A stretch of 64,000 nucleotides of DNA, taken from the NCBI RefSeq assembly GCF_000513295.1, contig NC_023065.1, positions 2,216,501-2,280,500 on the forward strand. The letters run 5' to 3'. The notes beneath the pieces were generated by a model. It ran no database searches and was not told where the DNA came from. It saw nothing but the letters and a program-made list of their open reading frames with translations. Within the stretch, counting starts at the first letter, position 1. Each line of letters begins with the position of its first letter. Below are positions 23,287 to 27,623 of the stretch, piece after piece. Origin of the DNA: Magnetospirillum gryphiswaldense MSR-1 v2. GTDB taxonomy: Bacteria > Pseudomonadota > Alphaproteobacteria > Rhodospirillales > Magnetospirillaceae. Position numbers and translations under genes: made by a program.

Positions 23287-26106
23287 ATGGCACTCACCCT
23301 CGGACTGAACACGGCACTCTCCGGTCTGCTCACCAACCAGCGCGCCCTGGACACCGTCGCCCAGAACGTCACCAACGTGAACACCAAGGGTTACGTCCGC
23401 AAGGTGATGAACCAGGAATCCCGGGTTCTCAACGGCTTCGGCGCCGGCGTGCAGGTGGGCTCGGTCACCCGTCAGATCAATGAAGGCCTGCTGAAGGACA
23501 TCCGCAAGCAGACCGCCGAACTGGGCAAGCTGCAGGTGGAAAGCAGCTATTATCCGCGTATCGACGATCTGTTCGGCAACGTCGCCGATAATTCGTCCAT
23601 CTCGCACAAGCTCAACGACCTGTACGAAGCCTTCGAATTGCTGGGCACCCAGGTGGACAAGCCGTCCATCCAATGGTCCTCGGTCCAGACCGGCCAGGAC
23701 GTGGCCGATCTGTTCGACCGCATGACCGACCAATTGCAGAGCCTGCGCCTGGAAGCCGACCGCGAAATCGAGACCACCGTCCAACTGATCAACGACAAAC
23801 TGTCCGACATCCACGACCTCAACCAGAAGATCGTCAAGAACTCCGCCGTCGCCACCGGCACCACCGACCTGGAAGACAAGCGCGACCAAGCTCTGACCGA
23901 TCTGGCCCAGTACATCGACGTCCAGTACTACCATCGCCAGGACGGCTCGATGATCGTCTACACCAATTCGGGCGAGATGCTGGTCGACAACCAGGACCAA
24001 CCGCTCTCCTATACCGCCAACACCCGCATCGACACCTGGATGACCGCCGCCGGCGGCCAGTTCAACAAGATTTCGGTGGATGGCGGTACCGACGATCTGG
24101 CCCCGCTGGTCAAGGGCGGCAAATTGCGCGCGCTGTTGGACATGCGCGACAAGACGGTGACCGATCTGCAAGCCAGCCTGGACGAGGCGGCCCAGACCAT
24201 GCTGGAAGAGGTCAACAAGGCGCACAACCGCGGCACCTCCTACCCCAATCCGTCCTATCGCTACGAAGGCAGCCGTACTTTCGCCAAGCAAGGCCAGGTC
24301 GTCCCCAACGCCGCCGACACCGCCGCCCGCTTCATGTTCGGCAGCACCACCGTGACCAGCGCCGGCTATACCAGCCTGTCCATCGCCGCCAGCGGCACCA
24401 ATCCGTGGCAGACGACCATGACCGCCAGTGCCGGCACGCCGTTTTCCACCATGAGCGCCGGAACTACCTTCAGCGTCGACAGCGCCGAGGACAGCAGCAA
24501 CAACGGCACCTATCGGGTGGTCAGCGTCGGCGGTGGCGGTGCCAACATCACGGTGGAAAAGGTCAATCCGCGCCAGACCATCCAATTGTCGGGCACCGAG
24601 GATGTGGTCATCGCCGTGTTCGGCAGCGACGGCAAGGAAGCCCAGCAGACCACGCTCAACACCATCATGCAGACCAATTATTCCGGTTCCTATACCGCCG
24701 CCACCGTCGGCACCGGTCGGTCACTGTCCGATTTCCAAGCCAAGGGCGACCACGACCAGTGGAGCGTCAACGAGGTCAGCGCCCACGTCGAGGCATGGCT
24801 GAGCGCGCAGGGTTACAGCACCGCCTCGGTCAACCTCAACAGTGAAGGCAAGATGGTCATCGACCTGGGGGTAACCAACAAATCCCTGGCCTTCCGCGAC
24901 CAGACCGCCACCGCCGACGGCTCCGCCGCCACCGACGCCACCATTTCCTTCGACGTCGACGGCGACGGCGCCGTTGACCAGACCGTCAAGGGCTTCGCTA
25001 ATTTCTTCGGCCTCAACGACTTCTTCTCCAATTCCAACCAGAACTCCATCCAGGATTCCAACATCCTGCCGTCCACCTTCAAGACCAGCACCACGCGGGA
25101 TCTGAAGATCCTGGACGGCACCGGCCAGTTGGGCCCCAACATGTCCATTCCGGCGGGGTCCAGCCTGGAAGACATCGCCGACATCATCAACAGCTACGGT
25201 CGCACCACCGAATCGGCGCCGTTGAGCTTGGCCCAGACCACTTTCACCCTGACCAGCGCCGCCACCATCAGCGTCACCAATACCAGCGGCCAGGTTTCCA
25301 CCGCCACCGTCGGCCCCGGCGCCGTCACCATGGAGGAAATCGCCGGCAAGCTGACTTCCGGAACGGTGGTCGGCTCGGTGATCCAGGACGGCGACGGCTA
25401 TCGCCTGCGCCTGCACAGCACCGCCGGGGCGGAACTGACCGTTTCCATCACCGGCGGCGCCATGGCCAGCGGCTCGCTCGAGGCGAGCCTGGGCATGAAC
25501 AAGGTGGAACGGGTCAGCGCCTCGGTCATCCCCGAGGGTTCGGGCTATCGCCTGCGCGTGGTCCAGGCGGAAAACAAGGAAGTCTTCCTGTCGTCGACGC
25601 TGGATATTTCCAACAACAACCTGTTGACCGAGCTTGAGATGAAGCCGGCGGCCACCCGTACCGCCGGTACCATCAGCGTCCGCGCCGATCTGATGTCGGG
25701 GCCGGAGAAGATGGGCCGCGGCGCCGTGCAGTGGAATGCCGACCTCAACGGCTATTATATCTCGGAAGGCGACAACAGCACCGCCCTGGCCATGGCCGAC
25801 GCCATGGGCAACAAGCGGGCCATGCAAAGCGCCGGCGGGCTTTATGCCGGCAATTATTCCCTGAGCGAATACGGCGCCGCGACCATCTCTCTGGTCACCC
25901 GCGATGCCGAACATTCGTCCAAGCAGCTTGAATACCAAACCGCCCTAAGCCAGTCGCTGGACTTCCAAAATACCTCGTTCAGCGGGGTTAATCTGGACGA
26001 AGAGGTGTCGGCTATGATTGACTTCCAACAGGCATATTCGGCGACCGCCAAGGTGATCACCGTACTCCAGGAAATGCTGGAAACGCTCACCGCGATGATT
26101 AACTGA
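23287..26106 (+). CDS. flgK: Flagellar hook-associated protein 1 FlgK (enlarged)
   Basis: A 939-residue FlgK, far longer than the usual 450-650. The N-terminal axial domain (LNTALSGLLTNQRALDTVAQ, NVTNVNTKGYVR) and C-terminal helix (SGVNLDEEVSAMIDFQQAYS) are canonical. The extra length is a beta-rich, Thr/Ser/Gly-rich central region (about residues 340-850). It includes a segment (GTTFSVDSAEDSSNNGTYRV, about 385-425) that resembles two units in neighbouring FlgL, and flagellin-IN-like stretches (GDGYRLRLHS). The protein forms the hook-filament junction. A GGGAGGA ribosome-binding site precedes the ATG. Confidence 0.95.
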   Translation: MALTLGLNTALSGLLTNQRALDTVAQNVTNVNTKGYVRKVMNQESRVLNGFGAGVQVGSVTRQINEGLLKDIRKQTAELGKLQVESSYYPRIDDLFGNVADNSSISHKLNDLYEAFELLGTQVDKPSIQWSSVQTGQDVADLFDRMTDQLQSLRLEADREIETTVQLINDKLSDIHDLNQKIVKNSAVATGTTDLEDKRDQALTDLAQYIDVQYYHRQDGSMIVYTNSGEMLVDNQDQPLSYTANTRIDTWMTAAGGQFNKISVDGGTDDLAPLVKGGKLRALLDMRDKTVTDLQASLDEAAQTMLEEVNKAHNRGTSYPNPSYRYEGSRTFAKQGQVVPNAADTAARFMFGSTTVTSAGYTSLSIAASGTNPWQTTMTASAGTPFSTMSAGTTFSVDSAEDSSNNGTYRVVSVGGGGANITVEKVNPRQTIQLSGTEDVVIAVFGSDGKEAQQTTLNTIMQTNYSGSYTAATVGTGRSLSDFQAKGDHDQWSVNEVSAHVEAWLSAQGYSTASVNLNSEGKMVIDLGVTNKSLAFRDQTATADGSAATDATISFDVDGDGAVDQTVKGFANFFGLNDFFSNSNQNSIQDSNILPSTFKTSTTRDLKILDGTGQLGPNMSIPAGSSLEDIADIINSYGRTTESAPLSLAQTTFTLTSAATISVTNTSGQVSTATVGPGAVTMEEIAGKLTSGTVVGSVIQDGDGYRLRLHSTAGAELTVSITGGAMASGSLEASLGMNKVERVSASVIPEGSGYRLRVVQAENKEVFLSSTLDISNNNLLTELEMKPAATRTAGTISVRADLMSGPEKMGRGAVQWNADLNGYYISEGDNSTALAMADAMGNKRAMQSAGGLYAGNYSLSEYGAATISLVTRDAEHSSKQLEYQTALSQSLDFQNTSFSGVNLDEEVSAMIDFQQAYSATAKVITVLQEMLETLTAMIN

Positions 26107-26117
26107 CGGAGGATGCC

Positions 26118-27623
26118 ATGACCCGCGTCGCAACCTATGGCTCCAATCAGCTTTACCTGTCACGCATCACCGCCGTGCAGGAACGCGTCAACATGCGCAC
26201 CCTTCAGGTGGTCACCGAGAAGAAGTCGCCCAACTACACCGGCATTTCCGCCGATGCCAACCGGCTGATCAATTTCGAGAACGAAAAGGCGCGCTCGCAG
26301 GCCTTCATCAACAACAACGCCTCGCTGCAAACCACCATCGGTCTAGCCGACGTGTCGTTGACGGCGGTGGAAAAGACCATGAAGACCTTCCGCGACCGGT
26401 TGGAAACCTTCTACACCAACAAGAACCGCACCCAACAAGACATCGAATCGATCCAGACCCTGGCTTTCCAGTCGATGATCGACATGCAGTCGTATCTGTC
26501 CAGCAGCGCTGACGGCAAATACCTGTTCTCGGGCGGCCTGGTATCGCAGGAACCGGTGCAATTGCCCGCCGCCACCCACGACGCCTTCAAGGATATCTAC
26601 GACGGTTTCAGCGTCACCTATCCGACCACCCGTGACGCCCACATGGTGGACACCGTCACCAAGACGGCGACCACCGGCAATTTGACCTTCAATGCCGCCA
26701 ACGGCACCATCACCGCCGCCAATGCCGGCACCTTGTCGCAATTCCCGGTGGGCAGCAAGATCACCGCCGCCGGTGCCTCGGGCGCCAACAACCAGTCCTA
26801 TACGGTGGTGGCCAATACCGGCACCCAGATCAAGGTGTCGCAGCTGACCACCGAGGGGCCGAGCGCCGCCACCATCAGCTATTACCCGGCTGGCAACACC
26901 ACCACCCCCAACGTCCTGAACGGCAACCTGACCTTTACCCCCGGTACCGACACCATCCAGGTGTCCAGCACCACCGGCTTCGCCGTCGGACAGGTGTTCA
27001 CCGTCGCCGGCACCACCAGCAACGACGGCAGCTACAAGGTGTCGTCCATCGCCGCCGGCCCGCCCGACACCATCACGGTGGAAAGCGTCAAGGTCGGCGC
27101 CACCGAAACGGTCGCCGCCACCTTGTCCTCGGAATCCTGGTACAAGGGCGACAACATCTCCATCGAGCAGCGCATCGACCAGGACCGCACCGTCGCCATC
27201 GGCATCTTCGCCTCTGATCCGGCCTTTGAAAAAGCCTTCCGCGCCATGGGCCTGATCGCCCAGGGCAATTACGGTACCGCCGGCGGCCTGGAAAACAACA
27301 TGGAACGGGTCGAGCAGGCTCGCTACCTGATCCGCGATTCCATGCTGCATCCCGCCGGCAACAGCGCCCCCTTCGGCACGGAAGAATCCAGCGATCTGGA
27401 ATCGGTGCGGTCGCAATTGGGGGTGACGCAAAACCTGATCAAGACCAAGACGGAAAAGCATCAATCCTATATCGGCTTCCTCGACGACCGCATCATCTCC
27501 ATGGAAAACGTCGATAAGAATGAAGCCATCACCTTGCTGCTGGACGACCAGCGCGCCTTGGAAGCCGGCTATCAGGCCTTGTCCAAGGTTCGCGAGATGT
27601 CGCTGATCAACTTCCTGAATTAA
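26118..27623 (+). CDS. flgL: Flagellar hook-associated protein 3 FlgL (enlarged)
   Basis: A 501-residue FlgL where about 300 is common. The flagellin-like N-terminal helix (RITAVQERVNMRTLQVV) and C-terminal domain (ALEAGYQALSKVREMSLINFLN region) are intact. The middle holds two beta-rich repeat units at about residues 190-258 and 268-336 (for example GQVFTVAGTTSNDGSYKV). These are similar to each other and to one segment of FlgK. They would be surface-exposed on the junction. It is the last gene of the flagellar operon; a strong hairpin follows 27 bases later. Confidence 0.95.
   Translation: MTRVATYGSNQLYLSRITAVQERVNMRTLQVVTEKKSPNYTGISADANRLINFENEKARSQAFINNNASLQTTIGLADVSLTAVEKTMKTFRDRLETFYTNKNRTQQDIESIQTLAFQSMIDMQSYLSSSADGKYLFSGGLVSQEPVQLPAATHDAFKDIYDGFSVTYPTTRDAHMVDTVTKTATTGNLTFNAANGTITAANAGTLSQFPVGSKITAAGASGANNQSYTVVANTGTQIKVSQLTTEGPSAATISYYPAGNTTTPNVLNGNLTFTPGTDTIQVSSTTGFAVGQVFTVAGTTSNDGSYKVSSIAAGPPDTITVESVKVGATETVAATLSSESWYKGDNISIEQRIDQDRTVAIGIFASDPAFEKAFRAMGLIAQGNYGTAGGLENNMERVEQARYLIRDSMLHPAGNSAPFGTEESSDLESVRSQLGVTQNLIKTKTEKHQSYIGFLDDRIISMENVDKNEAITLLLDDQRALEAGYQALSKVREMSLINFLN

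Follow-up and report, generated by a model that had tools for sequence, protein, structure and literature searches.

How do two different proteins of the flagellar hook-filament junction come to carry similar outer parts? The question is raised by the neighbouring genes flgK and flgL in a stretch of 64,000 nucleotides of the Magnetospirillum gryphiswaldense MSR-1 v2 genome (contig NC_023065.1, positions 2,216,501 to 2,280,500; hereafter the window), a genome of 4.37 Mb in a single contig. An earlier note on this DNA had claimed that both proteins are much longer than usual and contain a similar unit, once in FlgK and twice in FlgL, which had spread between them. We found that the unit is a module of 70-85 residues, typically about 75, belonging to a family common to FlgK and FlgL, as judged from sequence profiles that recover each other, and that its spread reaches further than the earlier note saw, the hook protein FlgE being a carrier as well. 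The outer face of the joint between hook and filament is built from a reusable part: three successive axial proteins can form their outer faces from one interchangeable module, of which related bacteria have from none to eleven copies, sometimes in the hook protein too. A report on Xanthomonas FlgL states that the role of its outer domain D2 had not been determined by experiment (PMC6155364). The range of 0 to 11 copies offers a natural series for testing the roles of outer domains at the hook-filament junction.

Two profiles, each built within one protein, carry the finding. The first was seeded with FlgL unit 2 and grown solely within 75 FlgL rows of relatives; it matches FlgK of the window at residues 365-430 as well as FlgL unit 1, and it finds the module in 19 of 72 FlgK proteins, the next FlgK match having an expectation value (E) of 0.55. 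Searched against the six frames of the whole genome, its alignment A1 hits exactly three places, those of Table 1, and the next has an E of 0.092. The reverse profile, made from 14 FlgK segments cut by the coordinates of the earlier note, matches FlgL unit 1 (independent E-value, i-E, 2.2e-4) and, at i-E <0.01, 135 stretches in 63 of the 75 FlgL rows, all 135 of them at module places.

Table 1. Features of the flgK-flgL locus, in positions of the window.
Feature	Position	Strand	Remarks
flgK	23287..26106	+	939 amino acids (aa); D0/D1 ends, enlarged outer part
Extent of the insert in FlgK	24322..24576	+	about aa 346-430; from alignment, cleanly missing from sister group g7
Module copy in FlgK	24370..24606	+	FlgL-only profile: E 1.3e-9 (genome search), i-E 2.5e-9
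FliD D2-D3-like / Flagellin_IN-like beta domains in FlgK outer part	25045..25650	+	aa 586-788; not the shared module
flgL	26118..27623	+	501 aa; Flagellin_C 7.4e-7; starts 11 bases past flgK
FlgL module 1	26673..26885	+	FlgL-only profile: E 2.5e-22 (genome search)
FlgL module 2	26919..27137	+	FlgL-only profile: E 1.4e-16 (genome search)

It could be argued that segments rich in Thr, Ser and Gly and folded as beta strands resemble one another by composition or by chance, and in pairwise shuffling the FlgK unit against FlgL unit 1 is not significant taken alone (z 0.8, 441/2000). The FlgK unit against FlgL unit 2 gave z 5.4, with 2 of 2000 shuffles equal or better, and the two FlgL units against each other z 3.75 (7/2000). 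When the FlgK segment or FlgL segment 1 was shuffled with its composition kept, none of 5000 shuffles attained the observed profile score, although the test of the FlgL unit is not independent, because unit 1 helped to build the profile; the best reversed FlgK protein reached 10.6 bits. We regard chance similarity as extremely improbable and reject it on the reciprocal profiles, these shuffles and the lack of a further place in the genome. Segments of this composition in general do not match, and the outcome that the earlier note had named as fatal to its claim did not occur; the similar units are borne out, and the note had placed them correctly to within about 20 bases.

The signature of the module reads G-x-L-T-F ... 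T-I-T ... V-G-x-x-I/F-T-V-x-G-x-x-x-N-D/N-G-T/S-Y-x-V ... T-I-T-V, with the consensus elements G-x-L-T-F, T-I-T, G-x-F-x-x-x-x-V-G-x-x-I-T-x-x-G-x-x-x-N-N-G-T-Y-T-V and N-x-G-T-x-I-T. Structures of FlgL and FlgK were predicted with a mean predicted local distance difference test score (pLDDT) of 84.6 and 85.0. In these models the modules lie outside the helical D0/D1 core, at residues 187-341 of FlgL (two modules and a short linker, block pLDDT 79-95) and 364-434 of FlgK (77-91), and each is predicted to have six or seven short strands, whose order, as read from DSSP strings, agrees between the two proteins. Where the modules lie in the window, no Pfam domain exceeds its cut-off. When 27 modules were searched, DUF5666 was the most frequent Pfam match (4/27, at best 0.0018), and the lowest E of any single match was 9.7e-4 (GldM_3rd, one member). 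The VIA-align lists for both models were filled by D0/D1 matches and are uninformative on the module.

Within this order, the outer domain of FlgL is made up of this module, in 0 to 11 tandem copies. At least one copy is present in 69 of the 75 FlgL rows, a set that includes rows truncated at contig ends, one gene split across two rows and one duplicated via overlapping loci. For a tree of FlgL we kept 68 rows, leaving out those with less than 75% of the core columns and the duplicate L142. These have no copy (5 rows), one (11), two (18), three (8), four (22), or five, six, seven and eleven (one each), and at least 21 changes of copy number are needed on the tree. The largest FlgL seen, which has 11 modules in about 1260 residues, belongs to genome G017 (L079 / L209), whose FlgE and FlgK have 1122 and 1141 residues. 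The claim of unusual length holds against Salmonella, with an FlgL chain of 317 residues and an FlgK chain to 553; it fails for the order itself, in which an FlgL of 410-1267 aa is nothing unusual. In a class sample of 387 genomes, 10 besides this one have the module at E <=1e-6, and outside the order 9 of the 9 loci examined are FlgL, in a few other Alphaproteobacteria.

In FlgK the module forms an insert some 85 residues long, a short way past the D1 helices, at a point where FlgK of sister group g7 has just a few residues. On a tree of 71 FlgK proteins its presence changes five times, at least three times by starred branches. Of the 19 FlgK copies in a 182-module tree, 18 group together in a single starred clade (97*); the nineteenth, of genome G062, sits at another site in FlgK and apart in the module tree. 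FlgK has received the module a single time in this lineage, and elsewhere one further time at the other site. The reciprocal profiles, the clean insert and the single clade support the spread between junction proteins that had been supposed. The FlgK copy probably derives from an FlgL-type module, with FlgL the likely older home, since FlgL nearly always has the module and FlgK rarely; this direction is drawn from distribution, and it counts against it that the module tree has few columns (80) and many open forks (92 of 179 inner branches), so that the FlgL copy of origin cannot be assigned.

FlgE carries the module in 11 of 63 cases, mostly at residues 290-450, and two genomes have it in FlgE, FlgK and FlgL together. 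In two genomes, G072 (C6:1515-3711) and G095 (C67), the FlgE matches fall in two frames or contain an internal stop, by assembly error or in a broken gene. The remaining places in 61 relatives were assigned to genes from their coordinates. Just three other carriers occur there at E <=1e-3: an RTX surface protein of giant size, a tail-tube protein from a prophage and a pilin-like protein of 1043 aa, with no flagellin and no FliD among them. The first (G058, L234) is RTX-, laminin-G- and cadherin-like, its frame exceeds 10,000 residues, and it has two modules (1.7e-17 and 1.6e-10). The tail-tube protein (G004, L238:2157-2861) has one module-like stretch ahead of its tail-tube domain, and the third (G024, L239:1881-5012) has a pilin-like start and as many as three weak copies of the module.

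Shared or doubled outer domains of FlgK and FlgL are already known in other bacteria, with another domain at another site, and we asked whether the module is simply the known D2 common to both proteins. D2 of Xanthomonas FlgL (xcFlgL) is reported to resemble D2 of Burkholderia FlgK (bpFlgK; PMC6155364), and D3 of bpFlgK to have a fold similar to its own D2 (PMC5691160); the Pfam model of FlgK D3, PF21159, matches 3 of the 27 modules, at best with 0.0095. The xcFlgL D2 is described as an eight-strand sandwich between helices a3a and a3b (PMC6155364), whereas the FlgL modules precede the beta3-beta4 hairpin (strands 349-352 and 358-361) and helix 368-381 of the predicted model, so that by our own assignment of elements, model against paper text, they are not inserted between those helices. 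The module profile gives no usable sequence match to Burkholderia FlgK (4ut1; E 4.4), and matches of the FlgL profile on known FlgL end at the module. Identity with the known D2 is, in our view, rather unlikely. Xanthomonas FlgL (5zj0) and 4ut1 resemble the present case in having beta-rich outer domains, shared or doubled, on a D1 core (PMC6155364, PMC5691160); here the module is smaller, occupies another site in FlgL, runs to 11 tandem copies and also enters FlgE. The giant flagellins of Oceanospirillales, with a doubled DE region, likewise show an axial protein growing by doubling of an outer domain; there the growth is in flagellin and within one protein (PMC6248924), whereas here it concerns junction and hook, is shared between proteins and goes with flagellins that are not giant. 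Literature searches listed no paper on a module common to FlgK, FlgL and FlgE, and, as far as they show, the small tandem module, its copy-number range and its presence in three axial proteins are new.

What might the copies do at the joint? Lengths were compared in 52 genomes, rows cut by contig ends being excluded and the tree contrasts dropping one more genome with a cut FlgK. The lengths of FlgL and FlgE rise together (Spearman 0.83, and 0.62 when taken as 50 tree contrasts, with 0 of 20000 permutations as strong), and all 15 genomes of this set with an FlgK module have an FlgL with at least two. The FlgE of this genome has 693 aa, against 402 for the Salmonella hook chain, and its Flagellin_N frames, the FlgL paralogue excluded, are of 190-417 aa, so this is not a giant-flagellin case and a thick filament was rejected here as the cause; flagellin frames are larger in group g7 (525-571 aa in G018, G029 and G034), where a partial link with the filament is possible. 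Because FlgL length tracks that of FlgE, the hook protein is long and the flagellins are not giant, the most likely of the readings is that the modules thicken the outer face of the joint to match a thick hook, widening the collar where this hook gives way to a thinner filament, and we hold it with moderate confidence. Each copy would be a self-folding bead, exported with its carrier via the flagellar type III route, and would come to lie on the outer side of the junction-subunit ring, where the beads would jointly widen the collar and pack against the hook below. FlgE, FlgK and FlgL may thereby keep matching outer faces, even though the flagellins of the filament above are small. Where junction structures have been solved, D2 of both FlgK and FlgL is described as outward-facing and exposed (PMC12221982), and another report argues that Campylobacter FlgK, in a flagellum with an FlgL of 750-950 residues, changed to suit extra hook domains (PMC5691160). 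Several results weigh against a widened collar: the FlgL-FlgE correlation of contrasts is 0.41 once the three strongest are removed, only about half of the contrasts (0.52) have matching signs, FlgK length follows FlgL length more weakly (0.35), and most FlgE and FlgK of the set lack the module although FlgL has it, so that contact between like modules cannot be general.

The earlier note had thought of an adhesive or shielding surface. On this reading, beads arranged as a ring around the base of the flagellum would bind to surfaces or conceal the joint from phages or predators. The two modules in the giant surface protein of RTX, laminin-G and cadherin type speak for this, as does the fact that the module lies outside, changes in copy number in FlgL and varies fast: between FlgK of the window and ten congeners (the nearest left out) it has 48-84% identity, compared with 59-87% in the D0/D1 core. 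Yet the outer, module-free FlgK stretch 640-745 is as variable or more (43-74%), and the copies are few for adhesion, since FlgK and FlgL each form roughly a single ring at the junction. No binding motif was found, though no search was aimed at one. We think such a surface unlikely. It is equally doubtful that the insertion is neutral, the outer domains of axial proteins tolerating any small self-folding domain, which would be duplicated and copied without gain. The 21 changes in FlgL, the absence of the FlgK copy from g7 and the scattered FlgE copies fit neutrality; against it, the module with its signature residues is retained in each of the 12 further FlgK proteins from this genus, and the lengths of FlgE and FlgL covary.

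Some likenesses lead to phage proteins. The module profile, searched in this one direction, weakly matches 6mnt (E 1.3e-4) and 8skg (0.018); presumably both are the same CUS-3 I-domain, in keeping with a match to the same stretch. The P22-like phage coat I-domain (CUS-3, 8SKG) is described as a self-folding six-strand beta-barrel inserted in its host protein (PMC11243222), which resembles the situation of the module, but the sequence match is weak and the loops are longer. At E <=0.1, 21 of the 27 modules match phrog_1236 of the phage head (best 2.9e-6) and 5 match phrog_584, a major tail protein (best 2.5e-4), the carrier proteins there being other than those of the flagellar module. A tblastn search with one natural module found no phage record, and when the complete FlgL model was compared with viral folds, a search uninformative for a single domain, TM-scores were low throughout. 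The likeness to phage coat insertion domains is distant and, at the level of sequence, is a lead rather than membership. A broader idea, which we find improbable, is that of a plug-in domain of filamentous surface machines: a single self-folding bead, able to go through the flagellar export channel, that is exchanged between proteins of hook and junction, giant adhesins, pilin-like proteins and proteins of phage tails or heads, and of which like copies in the flagellum would stack from hook to junction on neighbouring rings and so set the stiffness of the joint.

In the window, flgI (21333), a short, rod-binding FlgJ-like protein (22520) and an FlgN-like chaperone (22835) precede flgK and flgL. 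FlgK exceeds the cut-off of the NCBIfam FlgK model TIGR02492 (282.3 bits, cut-off 170.75) and matches FlgK_D1 (1e-40), and its predicted model shows the D0/D1 fold when aligned to Salmonella FlgK (9go6_A; Z 23.9, root-mean-square deviation (rmsd) 4.0, 488 aligned). FlgL passes PF00700 (29.9 bits, cut-off 23) and its model aligns to Salmonella FlgL (Z 19.1, rmsd 3.5, 293 aligned); because it falls below the cut-off of the FlgL model TIGR02550 (36.2 bits, cut-off 127.2), its name is based on fold, gene place and Flagellin_C. Its nearest named records are from Magnetospirillum and related Rhodospirillaceae (97% in a metagenome bin, 84% in Magnetospirillum sp. 64-120). The genome has a second flgK-flgL pair without the module (L137, 83.7-86.7 kb; a frame of 561 aa and one of about 300 aa), in a second flagellar set, and that second FlgL, at 84 kb, has merely a short loop where the modules sit. 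Residues 586-788 of the FlgK model match FliD (5h5w) with Z 11.7 and rmsd 2.1 over 96 residues, and Flagellin_IN matches in the FlgK outer part with 0.025 at best; this likeness to D2-D3 of the filament cap protein is a second case of sharing among axial proteins.

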